From Cyanobacteria bacterium UBA11370 (lineage in GTDB: Bacteria > Cyanobacteriota > Cyanobacteriia > Cyanobacteriales > Coleofasciculaceae), in assembly GCA_003486645.1 (NCBI GenBank), contig DNGI01000078.1, positions 1 to 22,872 on the forward strand: a stretch of DNA of 22,872 bases, in the 5' to 3' direction. Below are positions 6,417-22,193 of this stretch, in pieces (the first letter of the stretch is position 1; the number at the start of each line of letters is the position of its first letter). A program made the translations under genes and the position numbers. Below the pieces are notes generated by a model. It worked only from the letters and a program-made list of their open reading frames with translations, ran no database searches and was not told the origin of the DNA.

Positions 6417-6740
6417 ATGCTAATCTCCGTCATCAAAGAACACATCGAAATTACTCCTGGAGTATGTGGCGGAAAACCTCGGATCGCTGGACATCGCATT
6501 AGAGTTCAGGATATTGTCATTTGGCATGAACAAATGGGAATGTCACCCGATGAAATTCTCTATCACTACCCCAGTATTACCTTATCGGACATCTATGCAG
6601 CCTTAGCTTATTATCACGATCATCGAGATGAAATTCGCTCCTCAATTGAAGACGATGAAGAATTCGCCTGCCAAATCAAAGCTCAAACACCATCTCTAGT
6701 GCAACAAAAATTGAAAACTCATTATCATGGCAAAGATTGA
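6417..6740 (+). CDS. DUF433 family protein, probable antitoxin
   Basis: 107 residues. ITPGVCGGKPRIAGHRIRVQ at about 12-31, DEILYHYPSITLSDIYAALA and YYHDHRDEI are the hallmarks of DUF433, a small HTH family that in type II toxin-antitoxin pairs (VapB45-like) is normally followed by an overlapping gene for a DUF5615 PIN-like toxin. The expected partner begins here at 6727, overlapping this gene by 14 bases, but closes after 29 codons. This copy therefore seems to be an orphan antitoxin. It may still regulate its own promoter; an AT-rich CATAATATAAAAT lies about 25 bases upstream of ATG 6417. Confidence 0.85.
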   Translation: MLISVIKEHIEITPGVCGGKPRIAGHRIRVQDIVIWHEQMGMSPDEILYHYPSITLSDIYAALAYYHDHRDEIRSSIEDDEEFACQIKAQTPSLVQQKLKTHYHGKD

Positions 6741-12098: not shown

Positions 12099-12935
12099 TC
12101 AAACGTTCAACCAATGAGAACAATCTAATCCAGTCAGTTCCTGTAATTGAACAATGTCATCCTGATAAATTTTGATTAGTTTCCTTCTCGCTTGAACGGA
12201 TAATGGTGGAATTGGAGGTTCAACGATCTGGTCAATCAGTTGTTTTAGTTGTGGTAATATCCGTTTCAAAATAAACTGAAAAAAATGTTTAAGCTGCTGG
12301 TTCGACCGAAGCAATTGCAACGTTAATCGAGTAACCAAATTAGGCTTGAGTTTACCCTTATGGTAGATGCGATCGCGCTGGACTTCAAAATTCGGATCTA
12401 CTCCGATGAACGTGAAGAGTTCCTTGATAAAGTAATCAGGTCTACTGACTAGCTCATCATAAAGCATTATTTTGATTTGCTCTCTCGGAAATAATTTAAA
12501 ATAATTTGTTAGATGAGCGTAGTAGTAGCCAGGTTCAATAAAATTGGTTAATTCTAAAAGTTTTGACTGAAGTTCTTTGAGTTCTTTTCTGCTATATTTT
12601 TTTTTAAAACAAGCATGGGAATAAGCCCTATCAGCGGGGTTGCGAAGTACAGCAATAATTTTCACATCAGGAAATAAATGTTTAATTCTTTGAGCCACTC
12701 CATCGGCATGAAGATATACACTAGACACTTCACCTAAAGCGATTTCGTTGGTAGCATCCTTGTATTGCTCTAGATATTTGTCTGCATCTTCAATAGATTT
12801 AATTTTACGTTGAGTTAGAATATCTTCACCCTTATTCGGAATTAAATATACTTGTGGATGTTGTTTAAGATAGTAGTGGAGAGATGTTGTCGCCGCTTTA
12901 TGGGCACCGATGATTATAAAGGTTGGATCGTTCAT
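12099..12935 (-). CDS. Second PAPS-type sulfotransferase with variant phosphosulfate loop
   Basis: 278 residues, related to its convergent neighbour. The loop reads GAHKAATTSL (10-19), with Ala15 where a Gly is usual (KxGTT); the 3'-phosphate segment AVLRNPADRAYSHAC (95-109) keeps Arg98 and Ser106. Activity is likely but the loop change is worth noting. GGAAGAG lies upstream of ATG 12935 in sequence that belongs to a decayed glycosyltransferase fragment, so the gene now begins right after that remnant. It is on the same strand as the glycosyltransferase operon and was probably part of it once. Confidence 0.88.
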   Translation of the reverse strand: MNDPTFIIIGAHKAATTSLHYYLKQHPQVYLIPNKGEDILTQRKIKSIEDADKYLEQYKDATNEIALGEVSSVYLHADGVAQRIKHLFPDVKIIAVLRNPADRAYSHACFKKKYSRKELKELQSKLLELTNFIEPGYYYAHLTNYFKLFPREQIKIMLYDELVSRPDYFIKELFTFIGVDPNFEVQRDRIYHKGKLKPNLVTRLTLQLLRSNQQLKHFFQFILKRILPQLKQLIDQIVEPPIPPLSVQARRKLIKIYQDDIVQLQELTGLDCSHWLNV

Positions 12936-13541: not shown

Positions 13542-14456
13542 TTAAAATCGATGTTTGATATTTTCTTTAATTTTCTGCAATAGACTTTTCTGGCTAGGAG
13601 TTCGTAAAGACTCATCATCTGGCATTTCTTCACCTAAATAACGGTAATATTTCCAGATATCCCAGTAAGGACAACCCGGTTGAATCCGAATGCCTGCCCA
13701 GTGTAAGTAGTCTAAGGGTTGATTGACATTCGGATCGATGAGTTGATTTCCTTGAATTTGAAAATGTTTGCTCCCTGCCCAACTTCCCGGCGCACCCCCT
13801 GATCGGCGAACAATATTAAACCGATTGGGCACTTCTTTCAAAATCATATAGTTTATAATTGGTTGATCAGAGGTCTTTTGAGAAAAGTCAAAGTATTCGG
13901 GATGATTAGCACATTTAGCAAAAGTTTTATATAAATTTTCTTCTGAAATAAGATTTTTCTTAGCTCCCCAAAATCCGCCATTAAAAATATCCTTAATTTC
14001 GCTTTCTTTTATGACACCATCTTCAATAATTTTCGGGCTAAAAACATTTTTAATTCCTCCCGAATGTTGGTAATCATAGCAAATAAAATCATACTCGTTA
14101 AGATAGTCAGCCGTATTGATTATTTTGTCAAAGACAACCAGATCCGTATCAATATAAATAAACTTATCAAATGACCCAAACCAGCACGCTTGTTTACGAA
14201 ATTGATTAGGTCTAGCGAAAAAGCCTTCACCAAAAATTTTGTATAATTGATTTGCCAGACGGTCTATGAATTCTAAATCTTGATAAATTTCTACACCATA
14301 GGACTCCTTTAAAAGTTTAGCGATCGCTTGGTAGTTATCATCATAGGGAATTAAAACAATTGGAGTCTCAGTATCGTGTAAACGAATACTCTTGAGAAGT
14401 GCGATCGCCTGATCGATAACCTTATCGTTAGCTGTAATATAAATACCACGACTCAT
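13542..14456 (-). CDS. GT-A type glycosyltransferase-like protein (paralogue 1)
   Basis: 304 residues. Starts MSRGIYITANDKVIDQAIAL, then a GT8-like nucleotide-sugar layout: LLKSIRLHDTETPIVLIPY (21-39), FDKFIYIDTDLVVF with the metal-binding DTD at 103-105, IFNGGFWGAKK, and LDYLHWAGIRIQPG with a conserved HWAG near the C-terminus. I recall this group as the cyanobacterial 'Npun_R2821/Npun_R2823 family'; sugar donor and acceptor are unknown. It is the last gene of a three-gene operon, 13 bases after its paralogue, which suggests two related sugar transfers in one pathway. A broken third copy lies downstream. Confidence 0.82.
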   Translation of the reverse strand: MSRGIYITANDKVIDQAIALLKSIRLHDTETPIVLIPYDDNYQAIAKLLKESYGVEIYQDLEFIDRLANQLYKIFGEGFFARPNQFRKQACWFGSFDKFIYIDTDLVVFDKIINTADYLNEYDFICYDYQHSGGIKNVFSPKIIEDGVIKESEIKDIFNGGFWGAKKNLISEENLYKTFAKCANHPEYFDFSQKTSDQPIINYMILKEVPNRFNIVRRSGGAPGSWAGSKHFQIQGNQLIDPNVNQPLDYLHWAGIRIQPGCPYWDIWKYYRYLGEEMPDDESLRTPSQKSLLQKIKENIKHRF

Positions 14457-14469
14457 TGCAACATCCTCA

Positions 14470-15462
14470 TTACGTTAATTTCAGTTTTTTTAGTACTCGT
14501 TTGGCAAGACTCGGAGGTTGATTGTAGGGTTTTGGCTTGGCTGTAAACTTGGGTCTTTTGTCAGGTTCATGAAGATACCGATAATATAAAAATGTATCCC
14601 GATAAGGAAAATCAATATTTTCTCCCCTACAGACTTTAGCGAAAAGTTTCGAGGATAAGCCGATATAGTGAAGGTAGGTTAGACGATGACCTTTATCATA
14701 CAAAATATGATCGTTCTCTTCAAAGTGAGGAGATGTGACACAGCATCCTGTTTTTTCTTCTTGAGATAAATTTAAAGCCACGTTATAGACAGATAAATTA
14801 GATCTCATCATCATGTAGTTGATGAGAGTTTGATCGGGTGCCATGGGATAAAGGACTTCCGCATCTCCATCTTGCAATTTTGAGATTAACCAATTTCGTT
14901 GATCTTGATCAAACAAACCTTTTTTAGACGCATAAAATCCTGAACAAAATATCTCAGTTTTAATTCGTTCTGATGAAAATAACTTAGTGAGTTTACCAGA
15001 AGCCACCTCATAAACATGAGTTGGGTCGTTATACTGAAAGTCATAAACAACACAATCACTATCCTGGAGTTGGGCAAAAATAAACTCGACAGATGCCATA
15101 ATTAACGTATCCGCATCCATGTAGAGGAAGCGATCAAAAGGACCATCAAACGCACAGTAACGCCGATGAGTTCCAAAACGATGATAGCTCGTACTACCAG
15201 CCTTACGCCACCGTTGAAAAGCGGTTGGATGAGTATCCCAAGCACGTTTAGCAAACTCATCCCATCGCTGCATAGATTCAACATTATCGTAGAGTTGAAC
15301 GTTGGGGCGACGGTCAATTTCGGCAGCAATTTGGCTGGTATCGTCGTTATAAGGATAGATACAAACGGGAGTTTCTGACCCTAGAATAGCATCAATACTA
15401 TTGAGTAAAGCCACGAGTTGGTCGTAAACTTGGTCACTCGCTAAGGTACAAATCCCATCCAT
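14470..15462 (-). CDS. GT-A type glycosyltransferase-like protein (paralogue 2)
   Basis: 330 residues, start MDGICTLASDQVYDQLVALL. Metal-binding DAD at 116-118 in RFLYMDADTLIM. IFCSGFYASKKG and LTYLHYIGLSSKLF correspond to NGGFWGAKK and LDYLHWAGIRI of paralogue 1, so both come from an old duplication. It has a Lys-rich C-terminus (RVLKKLKLT). It starts five bases after the stop of the GT10-like gene, so translation is probably coupled. Substrate unknown. Confidence 0.82.
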   Translation of the reverse strand: MDGICTLASDQVYDQLVALLNSIDAILGSETPVCIYPYNDDTSQIAAEIDRRPNVQLYDNVESMQRWDEFAKRAWDTHPTAFQRWRKAGSTSYHRFGTHRRYCAFDGPFDRFLYMDADTLIMASVEFIFAQLQDSDCVVYDFQYNDPTHVYEVASGKLTKLFSSERIKTEIFCSGFYASKKGLFDQDQRNWLISKLQDGDAEVLYPMAPDQTLINYMMMRSNLSVYNVALNLSQEEKTGCCVTSPHFEENDHILYDKGHRLTYLHYIGLSSKLFAKVCRGENIDFPYRDTFLYYRYLHEPDKRPKFTAKPKPYNQPPSLAKRVLKKLKLT

Positions 15463-15467
15463 AATGT

Positions 15468-16424
15468 TTAAGAGAATTGAGTAACAAAATCAGATAACCA
15501 ATTGAGAAGATTGAGTTTGTGCAGGATAATTTGTCTGGCTTCTGCGATCGCATCCTTGGCTTGATACCAAGCATCCGGTGTAGCTGTCACTTCTTTAATA
15601 TAAGCGATTCCCTTTTCATCTAGGCTAGGTAATCTTAGGAAACTTCCTGGCGGCATTAATTTATCCGCCGCCGATCCTCCATAATAGATCGGTAAACACC
15701 AAGCTAAGAGAGAATCCCACAACTTCTCACTCACATACCAATCATTTCCAGCATAGTTCTCTATCGAGAGATTGTAATAATAAGGAGCCATCACATTCCA
15801 TTTATTATTAACCTTACCCCCTGCACGCGCCCAGTCTGGTAAATTACGCCCATACAGATCAAACTCTGCGCCACTCTCCCTTAATGACTTTAAAAAAGCT
15901 AAACGTTTACGATGTTCCTCCGTGCGATCAATTCCTGAAGTAATCCAGCTACAAGGTTTTACCTTTTCTGGTGGCTCCATTTCATTTAATTCTCGAAAAG
16001 AATTGTTATGATACCAAATGGCAGGCATATAAGCAGGAGTTGGGGCAAAGTCATCCGGGCCAGAAATATAACCACAATAATTCTTAGCCGTTTCATAATT
16101 CCTCTGATTAGCTTTAATCACCTTCTCTAAAGGGGGTTCTCGCAATAAATAAATAGTTCGTTCTTTCGGCACGCCACGCAACCGAGATTCTATATTTGGT
16201 TCTTGCTGCTTTTGCGGTTTACCAAAACGTTTCCACCAAGGAATTTTGGGGCGGGGTTTGTGAAAATCGTACTGATACATTAGTAAAAAATCGGGCTGTG
16301 GGGCTTGTGAAAGGATTTGAATGTTTCCCCACACTCCCAAAGGATTCGGAGTTTGTTGCCAGAGCCAATCGCTTTGAGTCAAACCCGGATATCCTGTAAT
16401 CATACCCACAATTTTTTTGCCCAT
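15468..16424 (-). CDS. GT10 (fucosyltransferase-like) glycosyltransferase
   Basis: 318 residues, first gene of the operon. The C-terminal domain has YNLSIENYAGNDWYVSEKLW followed by DSLLAWCLPIYYGG (217-250), which matches the GT10 signature FxLAxENS..DYVTEKxxxALxxGxxPVYxG. Residues 186-200 (AEFDLYGRNLPDWAR) fit the preceding conserved strand. GT10 enzymes use GDP-fucose or related donors; the true donor here is unknown. The start codon is preceded directly by GGTTGTT-type heptamers (on the other strand) and has no Shine-Dalgarno, so translation may be weak or use another mechanism. Confidence 0.82.
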   Translation of the reverse strand: MGKKIVGMITGYPGLTQSDWLWQQTPNPLGVWGNIQILSQAPQPDFLLMYQYDFHKPRPKIPWWKRFGKPQKQQEPNIESRLRGVPKERTIYLLREPPLEKVIKANQRNYETAKNYCGYISGPDDFAPTPAYMPAIWYHNNSFRELNEMEPPEKVKPCSWITSGIDRTEEHRKRLAFLKSLRESGAEFDLYGRNLPDWARAGGKVNNKWNVMAPYYYNLSIENYAGNDWYVSEKLWDSLLAWCLPIYYGGSAADKLMPPGSFLRLPSLDEKGIAYIKEVTATPDAWYQAKDAIAEARQIILHKLNLLNWLSDFVTQFS

Positions 16425-16594: not shown

Positions 16595-19500
16595 CTACCA
16601 AGGGCTGCCCACTATCGTTAATGCACTCCAATAATAGGGATGAGTAAATTTTAAATCTCCTAACTCAGCGAGTTCTTCAGATAAGGGGACGCGCACATCA
16701 CCTGTTACAAGTTGACCATCCTCCAGTCGCACTTCACCCTTAAGCATAGCAAGTTGTGCTTGTCGCAAGGCTTCTGCTTTGATGGGAGCAGTTTTCAAAT
16801 GTTCGTAGAAGCTTGTCATTAATCCTAGTGTCCCCGCATCGCTAACATACCATAAACTTCCTATGGCAGACTTTACTCCTGCTTGTATTGCCAAGCCAGC
16901 AAAGCCTAATTCCGCCTGTTCATCGCCTAGTGCTGTGCGACAAGCACTCAACACTAAAAGTTCTGTCGGTGGGTCATTTAATCCTAGCTTACGCAATTGA
17001 TCAAATTGTAACTTTTCGTTCCACAATTGAATGTAGGAGTTACTCGGATTACCGGGTTTAAATTCACCGTGGGTGGCTAAATGCACAATTCCAAAGGGTT
17101 GAGATGAACGCACTTTCTTGAGATTTTCTAACGTAAAAGCTTGGTTAAGGAATGACTTTCCTGACCAAAGTTTACCTGTAATTTCATTTAGTTCTAATGG
17201 AACGGCTGGTAAGGGGTTTAAATCAGTAAAGGTATCAGCCCCCATCGCCAAGACTTCAACATTCCGAATATCGACATAACGAGTATCGGTGAGGGAAAGA
17301 CTCGGCATTAAACCAATACTGTATCGTTCCACTAAAAATCCAGTCCCATCATGTAGTGCTGCAATAGGTAGGGAGCGCAATCCTGTATCCATAATAAACC
17401 CAAGATTATCAATTTTTTGGGCTTGTAAATACTCCTCTATTGGTGCAATTATCCACTGATAAAGTTGCTTAGAAGGAGTCAGATAGTCACGGGGAATGCG
17501 AATATCAGTGACGTTGCGGCGGAATTCTTGAGCAACTTTTATGACTTGTCCACGAGTTACTCCTGCTACCCGTCGCCGAATAGGAGGACCCTCTGATGTA
17601 ATGACTAATAGTTCTAATTGATCGCTATCTTGGGGTTGAATACCGATAGTTGGTTCAGTTCGTTGTAGATAGGTATCAAACTCTTGAGTCGTTGTTGTTT
17701 CGAGTCCGGTAAAGTTAGAATTAGCTGGAATTTCTGTAGGCACAAAACTAACATAAACGAGAGCTGGTTTTTTGCCAACGGCTCGTTCAATTTCCCGCAA
17801 GATTTCCCGCGCTTGATTTTCAGTTTTAATCGGCGTACTCGCTGAAAGAGGTTTCTCGATTATGGATGATAGTATCGGTATCTCTTGTGGCAGAACTGTA
17901 CAGGCAAGGGGGTTATCTTGTAATTGGCAATTCAAGGGTGTATCATTACCACCACCATTATTATCATCATCATCACCACCACCATTATCATCATCATCAG
18001 GTGGTAGTTCAGTAACTTTGACACTTACTTGTACCGGATCTGAAGTGGAAACGCGATCGCTTGCCACAATGGTGAAGGCTGGAATATTACCTGTCTCACC
18101 CTCTGGGGGAGTGTAAACTAAAACTGTATCTACAGTTATATCTGTTCCAGGTGTTACTGGTGTGCCATCTTCGAGTGTTAGTGTTCCGGCTGTAATCTCC
18201 TTAATTTGGATTGTGGTATTGTCGAGATTTGAATCTTCTATATCTAGATTTAAATCGGATATTTTGAATTGAATAGATTGATTTTCTTTGACAGTAAGTC
18301 TTTGTGGATTCCCTGCTAGTGTTGGTTTTTGATTAATGAATGAAAAGCTGATATTGCCCTGGGTAGAGGTAACGTCATTTGAAAGATCCGTACCATCATC
18401 CGGAAATTCTTGTGTTGGCGAAATTATGTTACTAGCACCCGCATTAATCGCTCCCGCTGTACCATTTTTACTGGCATCTCCTACAGTAAATAAATCATTA
18501 TTTACTCCGCCATTGTGGGTAATAGTTACGGTTCCAGATTGAGTACTTCCTTGAGTTAAAATAGTTGTATTGCTTGGAACTGGAGGACGATTAGGCTCGC
18601 TAGGATCGCTGATTATTCCGATTCCCCTAACTACTCCATCAGGTTCATCAGGAATTCTATTAGCTGTGATAGTAACATTGCCACCTGTACTCGTTGACGA
18701 AGTATTCGGTTCAGAATTGATCTGAGAAACACCTTGAGTGTTGATACTATTAAAGATAATTTTGCTTCCCTCTAAGGTTACTGAGTTGCCAGTTGCGTTT
18801 CCCGAAGAAGTAGAATCTCCCATCAAAGCCAAGGAAGCAGCCGAGGAATCAATTGCACCTGTTTCAATAGTGTCGGCGGCACTTAAATTGACTGCACCAG
18901 CGATCGCCTCCTTAGCATCAGCAGAAGTATCTCCCTCACTCCCTTCGCCAGCTTCAGCAAAGGAAAAAGCAAAGGAATTAATTGCGTTTGTAGTAATAGC
19001 ACCTGCTGTAGACGTTAAGTTTACTGAACCGCCTGTTGCCATTCCCGAACGAGCAGAAAAATCGGAAATGTCAGAGGAAGAAGCAGAGGAATTAATCTCT
19101 CCTGTTATGGTGATATCATCTGTCGCCATTGCGGTTACTGAACCACCGATACTGTTGAATTCACTGTTGCTAGTACCTGAAGAATTAATCCCACCTGTTG
19201 TGATAGTGCCGCCAGCATCTAATTCGACTAAACCCCCTTCAGAGGTATCTGTACCTCCACCTGTAAAGGAGGGCGTATTATTAGAAAATGAATTAATTGC
19301 GCCTGTTTCAATATCACCTTCAGCCGTTAACCTTACAGCACCCCCTTCAGAACCATAAGGATTATTTGCTTCATAAGAGGAATTAATCATATTGGTTGTG
19401 ATATCACCACCAGATGTTAAGGTTACTGAACCCCCTCTATTTTCTTCAAAAAAAGATGAGAACGTAGAGCTAGAATTAATTTGATTTGTCATAATATCAC

Positions 19501-21988
19501 CAGGAGCAGTGAGATTAATGTCGCCTCCATTGGTAAAATTAGAGCTAGCATTGAGAATGCCTCCGGTGGTATCAATGAAACCATTATTGCTAGTAAAGCT
19601 AATACTACCGCCCCCTGTTGTAATAGGAGCATTCACATGAATATTACGACCGGCGTTAAAAATCAAATTGAGGACATGAATGTCACTGTTATTAATGATT
19701 GAAGCAGTGACAAAGATATCATTAGCGGCATCTAGCGTGAACGTTACATTCGTCTCTCCTAAGAAAACATTAATCGGAGTCTCTACCGTAATATTTCCTG
19801 CCTGAGTTCCTGTTGTTCCTGTATTAATCGTGACACTAGTTCCTCCATTAAGGGTATCTATAATCTTTTGTACATCAACTACAGCATTGTTACCACTTGG
19901 CGTGAAAATATTAGGATCGCCTCCACTAAAAGATCCATTACTAGTACCAGCAGTTGATATCGTGACATTCCGAGGATCGAGCAACCACATCCCAGGTAAA
20001 CCATTTGTAGCGGTAGCATCCACTGAACCTGCTAACACTTCTAACAGGTTTTTACTGGATGTTTCTACGAACCCACCATTCCCGCTTTCAATTCCACCAC
20101 GAGCGGAAATATTGCCGGAAAATCGAGTAAAATTATCAGACCAAACAATAACGTTTCCCCCATCGCCATTCACTCTGGCATCGGCATTAATAGTGGCTTG
20201 ATTGCCTATAACAGTAGTTTGCGATCGCGGTACTGTTCCCCCTCCTTTATAATCTCCACCGAGGCGAATATTACCCCCGCCACTATTACCAGAAACATTA
20301 ATATGTGCCTGATCCACGACACCGACAACAGTACCAAACACATCTACATTTCCGCCTCTTCCAATTGAAGGAACAGACGCATCTAAAGTCCCAGAGTTTA
20401 TAACTGTTCCTGTCTGATTAGGAATGACTGTACCCGCCGCTGTTTGTACAGAATTATCGGGATTAACAGTTAATCCTGTTTCCACACCACTACCTGTCAG
20501 TAATTCTGCTAATGTTGATGGCGTTATAGTCTCGTTATTTGGAATTTCTAAACTCAAAACCTGACCTTCTTGACTGAGGCGCAATCGACTGGTTCCGGGT
20601 ACTGCCACCACGCTAATATTGCCACCTGGAGTTTTAATTATTCCGGTGTTAATTACACTTCCTCCAATCAGAGAAAGATTTTGTCCTTCTTCCACCGCTA
20701 ATGTGCCAGCATTAATAATAGCATTGGGCTGTAATGTATTAAACTGAAATCTAGTAGGATTCCCGACTAAACTGTTATAATCATTCGTTCCAATTGCCTT
20801 AAACCATCCACCATTAAGTCCAATCCCTGTCGCAGTGGTAGCGGTAAAGGAAGCGGGAACATTAAGTTGAGCATTTGCACCAAAAATAATCCCGTTTGGA
20901 TTCATCAAAAATAAATTTGAGTTCCCGCCTGTGACTTGAATTAAACCGTTGATGATAGAACGATTTTCTCCAGTAACGCGACCTAAAATATTTTGAATGG
21001 ATGGATTAGAAAGAAAGTTAGCGATCTGGTTTTTGTCTAAGCCAAACTCACTGAAACTATGGAAAAGATTATCACCGTTTCGAGAAAACTTGCCGCCAGT
21101 AATATCTAACCGATTCCCCTCAGATCTAACGACTGTCCCCGTGCTACCATCTGAAACGATTGGTTCAGCAAGAGCCAGAGATGGCAAAAGGCATAAGCTA
21201 AAAGGTAAAACAACCGAGGCAATTTTTGATAAAGAATTTTGGAGTTGAAATTTTATATTTGGACTGGCAAAATTAAGTAATTTACAATCAGTTTTATACC
21301 TACGTCTGTATGCCACCTGTGCTGCTCTACGGGCGCGACGAGCTTGTTCAATTTGTTCCTGTTTGGAGATACTTTCTGAATGGGTGCGATAGTAGTATAA
21401 GGGTTTGTTAACGTGCTGCACCTCGGTAATCTCAGAAAGCCGCAAACACAGTTCATAGTCCTCAACAAATTCAAAGGATTCATTGATACCACCTGCTTGC
21501 TCATAGACACTCCGACGTATCAACCGAAAGTGAAATGTCATGAATTGATGGAGCAATTCTTCTTTCGAGTAGGGAATAATGGAACGATACCCGTAGGTAG
21601 CAATTTTGCTTTGTTCATCAATTCCTAAATAACTGGTATAAACCATCCCAATTTCTGATTGAGTATCAAGAACAGCGGCGGTTTCTGCTAGGGCGGTTGG
21701 GGCGAGTAAGTCATCACTGTCTACCCAACCGATGTAAGTCCCATGAGTTTGAGCGATCGCTTCCTTTAACGAAATTCCTCGCCCTTGATGCTTTGCCCCT
21801 ACTACCCTGATGCGCTGATCCCGTGTAGCATAGTCATGGGCGATCGCTAACGAGTTATCCGTCGATCCGTCATCCCAAATCAATAGTTCAAAATCACCTT
21901 GGGTTTGGGAGAGAACGCTCTCTATTGCTCCGCCTAAGTAGCGATCGCGGTTATAAGTGGTGATGATTATTGAAATTGGTACTGCCAT
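16595..21988 (-). CDS. GT2 glycosyltransferase fused to secreted haemagglutinin-like CHAT protease protein
   Basis: 1797 residues from ATG 21988 (GGGGGA five bases upstream; an in-frame TTG at 22000 is less likely). Residues 1-240 are a GT2 domain: ISIIITTYNRDRYLGGAIES, DDGSTD (39-44), the DSDD metal site (90-93) and the ED pair (176-177). A Sec-type signal peptide follows inside the protein: Lys246, hydrophobic core 256-274 (IASVVLPFSLCLLPSLALA), Ala-x-Ala cleavage site at 274. Then comes a two-partner-secretion haemagglutination domain (NPNGIIFG from Asn363), a long beta-helix with repeats at about 820-1085, a cadherin-like Ig domain (about 1216-1325), an Asp/Gly linker, and a CHAT caspase-fold peptidase with His1640 (LATHGEF) and Cys1683 (LSACRTALG). 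Secreted TPS-CHAT proteins are known in cyanobacteria; an N-terminal GT2 fusion is not known to me. No TpsB transporter gene is in the window. Confidence 0.88.
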   Translation of the reverse strand: MAVPISIIITTYNRDRYLGGAIESVLSQTQGDFELLIWDDGSTDNSLAIAHDYATRDQRIRVVGAKHQGRGISLKEAIAQTHGTYIGWVDSDDLLAPTALAETAAVLDTQSEIGMVYTSYLGIDEQSKIATYGYRSIIPYSKEELLHQFMTFHFRLIRRSVYEQAGGINESFEFVEDYELCLRLSEITEVQHVNKPLYYYRTHSESISKQEQIEQARRARRAAQVAYRRRYKTDCKLLNFASPNIKFQLQNSLSKIASVVLPFSLCLLPSLALAEPIVSDGSTGTVVRSEGNRLDITGGKFSRNGDNLFHSFSEFGLDKNQIANFLSNPSIQNILGRVTGENRSIINGLIQVTGGNSNLFLMNPNGIIFGANAQLNVPASFTATTATGIGLNGGWFKAIGTNDYNSLVGNPTRFQFNTLQPNAIINAGTLAVEEGQNLSLIGGSVINTGIIKTPGGNISVVAVPGTSRLRLSQEGQVLSLEIPNNETITPSTLAELLTGSGVETGLTVNPDNSVQTAAGTVIPNQTGTVINSGTLDASVPSIGRGGNVDVFGTVVGVVDQAHINVSGNSGGGNIRLGGDYKGGGTVPRSQTTVIGNQATINADARVNGDGGNVIVWSDNFTRFSGNISARGGIESGNGGFVETSSKNLLEVLAGSVDATATNGLPGMWLLDPRNVTISTAGTSNGSFSGGDPNIFTPSGNNAVVDVQKIIDTLNGGTSVTINTGTTGTQAGNITVETPINVFLGETNVTFTLDAANDIFVTASIINNSDIHVLNLIFNAGRNIHVNAPITTGGGSISFTSNNGFIDTTGGILNASSNFTNGGDINLTAPGDIMTNQINSSSTFSSFFEENRGGSVTLTSGGDITTNMINSSYEANNPYGSEGGAVRLTAEGDIETGAINSFSNNTPSFTGGGTDTSEGGLVELDAGGTITTGGINSSGTSNSEFNSIGGSVTAMATDDITITGEINSSASSSDISDFSARSGMATGGSVNLTSTAGAITTNAINSFAFSFAEAGEGSEGDTSADAKEAIAGAVNLSAADTIETGAIDSSAASLALMGDSTSSGNATGNSVTLEGSKIIFNSINTQGVSQINSEPNTSSTSTGGNVTITANRIPDEPDGVVRGIGIISDPSEPNRPPVPSNTTILTQGSTQSGTVTITHNGGVNNDLFTVGDASKNGTAGAINAGASNIISPTQEFPDDGTDLSNDVTSTQGNISFSFINQKPTLAGNPQRLTVKENQSIQFKISDLNLDIEDSNLDNTTIQIKEITAGTLTLEDGTPVTPGTDITVDTVLVYTPPEGETGNIPAFTIVASDRVSTSDPVQVSVKVTELPPDDDDNGGGDDDDNNGGGNDTPLNCQLQDNPLACTVLPQEIPILSSIIEKPLSASTPIKTENQAREILREIERAVGKKPALVYVSFVPTEIPANSNFTGLETTTTQEFDTYLQRTEPTIGIQPQDSDQLELLVITSEGPPIRRRVAGVTRGQVIKVAQEFRRNVTDIRIPRDYLTPSKQLYQWIIAPIEEYLQAQKIDNLGFIMDTGLRSLPIAALHDGTGFLVERYSIGLMPSLSLTDTRYVDIRNVEVLAMGADTFTDLNPLPAVPLELNEITGKLWSGKSFLNQAFTLENLKKVRSSQPFGIVHLATHGEFKPGNPSNSYIQLWNEKLQFDQLRKLGLNDPPTELLVLSACRTALGDEQAELGFAGLAIQAGVKSAIGSLWYVSDAGTLGLMTSFYEHLKTAPIKAEALRQAQLAMLKGEVRLEDGQLVTGDVRVPLSEELAELGDLKFTHPYYWSALTIVGSPW
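17941..17998. repeat. Triplet repeat encoding the Asp/Gly linker
   Basis: ATC/ACC-type triplets on the plus strand encode, on the minus strand, blocks of DDDD, GGG and NN that link the Ig-like domain to the CHAT region. Acidic glycine-rich linkers of this kind are flexible and may bind calcium. The tract is prone to length change in frame. Confidence 0.75.
18735..19532 (-). repeat. Eight imperfect beta-helix repeats in the exoprotein
   Basis: Protein repeats of about 30-45 residues with the core GG.V.LT..GDI.T..INSS recur eight times (for example GGSVTLTSGGDITTNMINSS, GGAVRLTAEGDIETGAINSF, GGSVNLTSTAGAITTNAINS). The cores are constant and Ser-rich loops of variable length separate them. This is typical of the shaft of filamentous haemagglutinin-like proteins. 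Confidence 0.75.
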
Positions 21989-22193
21989 AAATTCCCCCAA
22001 GGTCGCTAGTCTTACAGAATGAGATGGTTCTTGAATGTTTCGGATTTTAATATTTTTTTATATTTCAAGTCTTTTTAATAAAAAAATCCTTTTTTAAACC
22101 AACAAAACCAACCCTTTTAGCTTGACAATTTTATTTTCTTGATTAACAGCTCATCTTGCTTTATTACTATAACGAATGAGTAAATTTTTGCGG

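Follow-up and report, generated by a model that had tools for sequence, protein, structure and literature searches.

A conserved cyanobacterial fusion of a GT2 glycosyltransferase to a secreted TPS-CHAT exoprotein, probably a two-in-one precursor

Introduction

How can a single polypeptide carry an enzyme of the cytosol and, behind it, the export signal and domains of a protein that is made to leave the cell? This question is raised by a gene on the minus strand (16595..21988) of contig DNGI01000078.1 of Cyanobacteria bacterium UBA11370 (assembly GCA_003486645.1, positions 1 to 22,872; this whole stretch of 22,872 nucleotides is called the window). The gene encodes a family 2 glycosyltransferase (GT2), a segment resembling a signal peptide, a two-partner secretion (TPS) domain, a passenger and a CHAT domain. 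A previous reading, made from the sequence only, had pointed to the conflict between a cytosolic-type GT2 and an exported TPS-CHAT part, and rightly so in our judgement; to our knowledge, bacterial chains in which an active enzyme of the cytosol precedes an export signal are few. Here, we describe that many cyanobacteria have kept this design and that it is under selection in them. Judged from the sequences, a two-in-one secreted precursor is its best explanation and a rather probable one.

Architecture of the fused gene

Counted from its first start codon, a TTG, the open reading frame (ORF) extends over 16595-22000 and has no internal stop. From the ATG at 21988 to the stop at 16595 it encodes 1797 amino acids in the same frame throughout, as the sequence-only reading had claimed: in the assembled sequence 1797 codons, the junction included, are read without a stop. 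The GT2 module (residues 1-240, 21269..21988, minus strand like all parts of the gene) has a GT-A fold, a DxDD motif at 90-93 and ED at 176-177, and it matches Glycos_transf_2 in Pfam above the cut-off (residues 6-164, E 8e-28). A linker and a signal-peptide-like segment follow (residues 241-274, 21167..21268), which were defined by sequence, by comparison with unfused proteins and random segments, and by a structural model. Directly after the signal segment comes the TPS secretion domain (residues 277-488, 20525..21160; PF05860, E 4e-41) with an NPNG motif and a match to adhes_NPXG of NCBIfam (TIGR01901, residues 309-386). The chain ends with a CHAT domain (residues 1505-1795, 16604..17476; PF12770, E 1e-70). 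The GT2, TPS/haemagglutination and CHAT domains that had been recognized without database searches are thus matched by Pfam well above cut-off, and His1640 and Cys1683 of the CHAT domain stand where they had been placed.

The passenger between TPS and CHAT (residues 489-1504, 17477..20524) was delimited by sequence and weak Pfam matches. It is a repeated Gly/Asn/Ser-rich region that looks beta-helix-like by eye, followed by an Ig/cadherin-like stretch at about 1219-1297. An Ig-like domain had been proposed as well; matches to aRib, Big_9 and Cadherin_5 do lie in this stretch, but all of them are below the cut-off, and it is a relative, P0134, that passes Cadherin_5 (here and below, proteins are labelled P, loci L and genomes G). 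AlphaFold2 models give the GT2 as a GT-A domain of high confidence (1-233), and the TPS domain is beta-rich in the one that covers 512 residues. GT2 and TPS form two distinct domains there, with a joint of low confidence (234-273) between them.

Recurrence and constraint

A search with residues 1-270 among proteins of about 990-3145 amino acids gave 363 matches at E ≤ 1e-8. Among the 120 of them that were listed, 115 have GT2 joined to TPS and 110 of these also have CHAT; the other five have GT2 without TPS. All named organisms of the fused rows are cyanobacteria (Nostoc, Cylindrospermum, Coleofasciculus, Microcoleus, Allocoleopsis, Tolypothrix, Leptolyngbya, Stenomitos, Pleurocapsa and others), with Nostoc sp. 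PCC 7107 and Cylindrospermum stagnale PCC 7417 among the carriers. Several of the fused relatives lie on contigs of 5-8.5 Mb, and assembly error is therefore not the explanation. At the DNA level 25 fused loci were compared: 23 fetched because GT2 lay in a long frame (L084-L106), L011 and the window. GT2, TPS and CHAT share one ORF at 23 of them; L097 is cut by the end of its contig, and the CHAT part of L095 (2185-9463) is in a second ORF. That 110 of the 120 relatives listed and 23 of 25 loci share this architecture is the result of neither sequencing error nor chance. As for L095, a gap of 497 bases precedes the second ORF, by which either a broken gene or an assembly fault is indicated.

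When 386 genomes of the phylum were scanned without a limit on protein length, 24 had a close GT2 (E ≤ 1e-40); it is fused in 12, the genome of the window included, and stand-alone in 13, with one genome having both, and these counts are lower bounds because seven candidates per genome were scored. G145 was counted as fused, although its gene leaves the contig end after TPS. In the window's own family, fused genes are present in 8 of 20 genomes, some of which have two or three copies; an additional match in G008 is cut by the contig end. A version in two genes was not seen: at 14 loci with a stand-alone GT2 (L069-L082, with 16 close GT2 ORFs), of which 13-19 kb each were fetched and ORFs of at least 60 amino acids considered, there was no match to TPS or CHAT. 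Neither of the two observations that might have undone the sequence-only reading, a stop at the junction of the assembled sequence or separate TPS and CHAT genes at the stand-alone loci, was made.

The catalytic residues of both ends are kept. D90, D92 and D93 are unchanged in 143 of 143 fused GT2 rows, and position 177 is always acidic (D in 138 rows, E in 5); row counts for motifs, signals and passengers include duplicates, since some loci and proteins represent the same gene. With the DxD motif and an acidic base retained, the GT2 looks active. Neither His1640 nor Cys1683 varies in any of the 136 fused rows or of 94 other CHAT rows, in line with a predicted caspase-like protease with a His-Cys dyad. 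The ratio of nonsynonymous to synonymous substitution rates (dN/dS) was determined for five fused pairs, out of the 12 closest GT2 pairs; it was 0.12-0.29 for GT2, 0.06-0.15 for TPS and, in four pairs, 0.08-0.12 for CHAT. All values are well below 1 and the GT2 is under purifying selection in 5/5 fused pairs. A recent fusion, which the sequence-only reading had considered, does not agree with an architecture that is widespread and diverged in Cyanobacteria and constrained in its GT2 and CHAT motifs. A recent or artefactual origin is rejected in view of the recurrence, the one-ORF loci, the kept motifs and the purifying selection.

The joint and the fate of the chain

At the joint in the window, a K-containing run of basic residues precedes the hydrophobic core IASVVLPFSLCLLPSLALA (residues 256-274), which ends in a cleavage-like ALA (272-274) and is followed by EPIVSDG. 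Unfused TPS-CHAT proteins have a short N-terminal signal peptide, and their TPS match starts at residue 44 (median). Core hydrophobicity has a median of 2.21 in fused (143 rows) and 2.25 in unfused proteins (74), versus 1.21 in random internal segments (429); rows with a TPS match starting after profile position 8 and unfused rows with fewer than 15 residues before TPS were left out of this comparison. Within the 25 residues before the core, fused rows have 4.9 K plus R versus 1.0 D plus E, a positive-inside flank from which the amino end is predicted to be in the cytosol. By these measures the joint of the fused proteins is similar to the signal peptide of unfused TPS-CHAT proteins, with a core and flank like those of a Sec signal but in an internal position.

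A two-in-one precursor could work as follows. The GT2 would fold and act in the cytosol, where the sugar nucleotides are, and the positively flanked hydrophobic segment would enter the Sec channel with its amino end inside. Signal peptidase I would cut at the joint. The GT2 would then stay behind, perhaps tethered to the membrane by the leftover signal segment, and the TPS-CHAT part would cross the outer membrane through a TpsB pore. That one chain would have to be either split or anchored across the membrane had been suggested before and seems right to us; of the two, we consider a split at the joint quite likely. With a conserved chain of this kind, an enzyme before the signal, it can be tested directly how internal signals are dealt with by Sec and signal peptidase.

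The alternatives to a split differ in how the joint is read. If the signal anchor stayed uncleaved, GT2 would remain in the cytosol and the rest of the chain would be periplasmic or surface-anchored. The positive-inside flank fits such an anchor with the amino end in, and a study on FhaB describes that its extended signal slows export and delays cleavage (PMC5422565). On the other side, both the hydrophobicity of the segment and its position just before TPS are like those of the signals in unfused homologues, and 94 of the 143 fused rows have a strict A-x-A site, compared with 34 of the 74 unfused ones; an uncut chain is in our opinion unlikely. Even less probable are two products from separate starts, the exported part being initiated in the linker or within the GT2 frame, although two features do speak for it and against a precursor that is cut: at least one ATG, GTG or TTG is found in the linker, surveyed from the end of the GT2 profile to the core, at 18 of 25 loci, and codon 225 of the window's gene, within the last helix of GT2, is a GTG in frame (21316-21314). 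Another point against the cut precursor is that the loose cleavage motif is not discriminating, being present in 142 of 143 fused and 74 of 74 unfused rows but also in 84% of the random segments. As to separate starts, the linker has no start codon at 7 of 25 loci, the window among them, it is only 6-7 residues long in L097, L098 and L099, the start positions vary from locus to locus, and a Met between GT2 and the core is lacking from the linker of 77 of 116 relatives. In addition, P0130 has lost most of its GT2 but kept the first residues, with the frame continuing into the signal segment, as expected if translation begins at the GT2 start codon. An accidental or assembly-made fusion without function has nothing in its favour beyond the oddity itself; 115 of the 120 listed relatives have the join, some on contigs of 5-8.5 Mb, catalytic motifs are kept and selection is purifying, so that we give it practically no chance.

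Relation to known systems

One of the closest known counterparts is the HMW1A/HMW1B/HMW1C system, in which a TpsA-type exoprotein likewise has a cytosolic glycosyltransferase of its own. In Haemophilus influenzae, HMW1C is reported to glycosylate HMW1 while it is still in the cytoplasm, and Sec export and cleavage by signal peptidase come afterwards (PMC3983070). Unlike the fused GT2, HMW1C is a separate protein and not a GT2, and the fused passengers described here carry CHAT and are not enriched in asparagine sequons over unfused relatives. HMW1C belongs to the OGT-like (GT41) class. Sequence ahead of the hydrophobic core of the signal is also known from the TPS protein FhaB (PMC5422565). 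The likeness is an extension before the signal core of a TpsA exoprotein; the extension of FhaB is a semi-conserved peptide, but here it is a complete enzyme of 230-240 residues. Ordinary cyanobacterial TPS-CHAT proteins have a similar signal segment, TPS, CHAT and the conserved His and Cys; they differ by their short N-terminal signal peptide and the lack of GT2.

A bacterial polyprotein that is cut at an internal signal sequence is the FbcH precursor of Bradyrhizobium japonicum, from which cytochrome b and cytochrome c1 arise. The likeness is one chain with an internal signal, and the difference is that both products of FbcH are membrane proteins of one complex. The nearest solved fold to the GT2 of the window is the second GT2 domain of the chondroitin polymerase K4CP of Escherichia coli K4, presumably a glucuronosyltransferase; K4CP itself is a polysaccharide polymerase. 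No paper on a GT2-TPS-CHAT fusion was found in the open-licence literature of PubMed Central, and searches there on FbcH as a precedent and on GalT1/Fap1 brought nothing of use. The fusion is real, conserved and apparently undescribed; we see in it a variation on two-partner secretion and not a system of a new kind. Annotation labels its named relatives by one end only, as 'CHAT domain-containing protein', 'filamentous hemagglutinin family protein' or 'glycosyltransferase, partial'.

Passenger, neighbouring genes and the possible acceptor

What would the GT2 glycosylate? During export it would be held beside its own passenger and might glycosylate in cis what HMW1C glycosylates in trans. By analogy with HMW1, we regard this cis-glycosylation as the most likely reason for the fusion, but a tentative one. 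Passengers of 129 fused and 76 unfused TPS-CHAT proteins were compared, with exact repeats and passengers below 200 residues left out; the p-values are descriptive and uncorrected, as near-duplicates and phylogeny were ignored. Ser plus Thr is slightly higher in fused passengers (21.7 vs 20.6%, p 0.003), due to Thr, and fused passengers are shorter (845 vs 1307) and richer in Pro. The passenger of the window is above the fused medians with 22.8% Ser plus Thr, 3.03 sequons and 1.47 for Ser/Thr runs; its observed/expected ratio of sequons is 1.51. A special glyco-acceptor passenger was looked for and is not clearly indicated, the composition differing little from that of unfused relatives.

Downstream of the fused gene, outside the chain and on the same strand, lies a GT10 gene (fucosyltransferase-like; 15468..16424, Pfam). 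Two genes of the Npun_R2821/R2822 family follow: one for a probable glycosyltransferase (14470..15462; NF045582 of NCBIfam, no Pfam match) and one that matches Mannosyl_trans3 (13542..14456; Pfam and NCBIfam). A sulfotransferase gene is found further along this strand (12099..12935, Pfam). The glycosyltransferase cluster noticed before is thus real, but fused gene, GT10 and the two family genes recur together at only 6 of 25 loci (window, L084, L087, L088, L093, L094), and of these L087 ends after GT10 and L088 has its GT10 split over two ORFs. A GT10 gene is present in 15 of 19 genomes of the family (E ≤ 1e-20), also in genomes without the fusion, and is therefore independent of it. From the latter, seven GT10 loci were fetched (L107-L113). 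In six (L107, L108, L110-L113) a protein of about 400 residues with a similar start is encoded upstream of GT10, either immediately before it or separated from it by one or two genes or fragments of genes (sulfotransferase-like in L110-L112); the one tested, from L107, is a GT4-type transferase. No such protein was found upstream of GT10 in L109, and L113 has GT10 without the two following genes.

Five of 25 fused loci (L101, L103-L106) have, as divergent neighbour, a gene for the putative partner pore TpsB (with ShlB and POTRA_2 domains), and a profile made from these five found no further one in the fetched loci. In the genome of the window there are 8 matches to ShlB (one partial), 26 to TPS and 37 to CHAT. 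The TpsB neighbours and the ShlB matches speak for the two-in-one precursor.

Several of these results count against the two-in-one precursor or against a GT2 that serves its own passenger: sequons are not enriched (medians 2.27 fused vs 2.37 unfused per 100 residues, p 0.11), their observed/expected ratio is alike (1.39 vs 1.40, p 0.52), as are Ser/Thr runs (0.78 vs 0.76, p 0.55), so that composition gives no clear support for glycosylation by the chain's own enzyme; a TpsB gene adjoining the fused gene was looked for in the window and not found; and the cassette suits equally well a glycan that is not attached to the passenger. The fusion could couple no more than expression and location, with the GT2 acting on a surface or capsular glycan made with other enzymes and the exoprotein being exported after cleavage. 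We see in this a serious possibility of somewhat less than even probability; it shares the split with the two-in-one precursor and differs in the acceptor, so that our confidences in the two overlap. The fused gene heads the GT10-GT-GT cassette at six loci, and in 6 of 7 fusion-less loci a transferase of about 400 amino acids replaces it upstream of GT10, so that the GT2 may take over a position in the assembly of a glycan. The nearest solved fold is that of the polymerase K4CP, two stand-alone members of the clade were tested and both are fused to sulfotransferase domains, and the passenger composition is unremarkable. Yet 19 of 25 fused loci have no match to the cassette of the window, 5 of 25 adjoin TpsB instead, and coupling alone requires no in-frame join, a version in two genes being absent from the 14 stand-alone loci. 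The most specific form of the two-in-one precursor, a polyprotein from which signal peptidase parts a resident glycosyltransferase and an adhesin-protease glycosylated in cis, hence a self-glycosylating exoprotein with its own enzyme copy per molecule, appears doubtful on this evidence. If the GT2 did act in cis, one gene would do the job for which HMW1-type systems employ a third partner of their own, and for each molecule secreted there would be one enzyme copy to glycosylate it.

Trees and variants of the design

With a view to a single origin of the fusion, trees were calculated from thinned rows, 80 of 163 for GT2 plus 10 outgroup rows and 86 of 230 for CHAT. Both are weakly resolved; parsimony of the fused state gives 5 and 6 changes, respectively, and the starred branches force at least 1 and 2. 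The GT2 of the window groups with Symplocastrum-type proteins (P0007, L011; 70-72%, a starred fork in the GT2 tree), and its CHAT is nearest to P0010-type Coleofasciculus proteins (83%, CHAT tree). These different nearest relatives hint at recombination within the gene.

P0109 combines GT2-TPS with Big_1 and other domains and has no CHAT match, which means that GT2 goes with the TPS part and not strictly with CHAT. P0003, a fused protein, has another GT2-like copy in tandem, placed in the linker ahead of the signal segment. Three TPS-CHAT proteins have a DUF433-type domain instead of GT2 ahead of the signal segment, P0134 by Pfam search and P0141 and P0129, the latter a partial protein, by precomputed Pfam annotation; going by P0134 and P0141, the slot before the signal is also filled by another domain. 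A small protein of the window (6417-6740, plus strand) resembles DUF433 by eye.

Close GT2 are also fused to Sulfotransfer_3/Sulfotransfer_4 domains, in two different layouts (L071 7862-9562, minus strand; L081 8674-10377, plus strand). Stand-alone GT2 of the same clade lie in a contractile-injection (baseplate) cluster (L076 8900-9727) and next to a DUF6519 protein (L069 8710-9483). Finally, TPR proteins of 578-616 amino acids adjoin fused genes in L096 (6049-7842), L098 (9335-11095), L099 (6855-8705) and L089 (2058-3794), and they are divergent in the first three.
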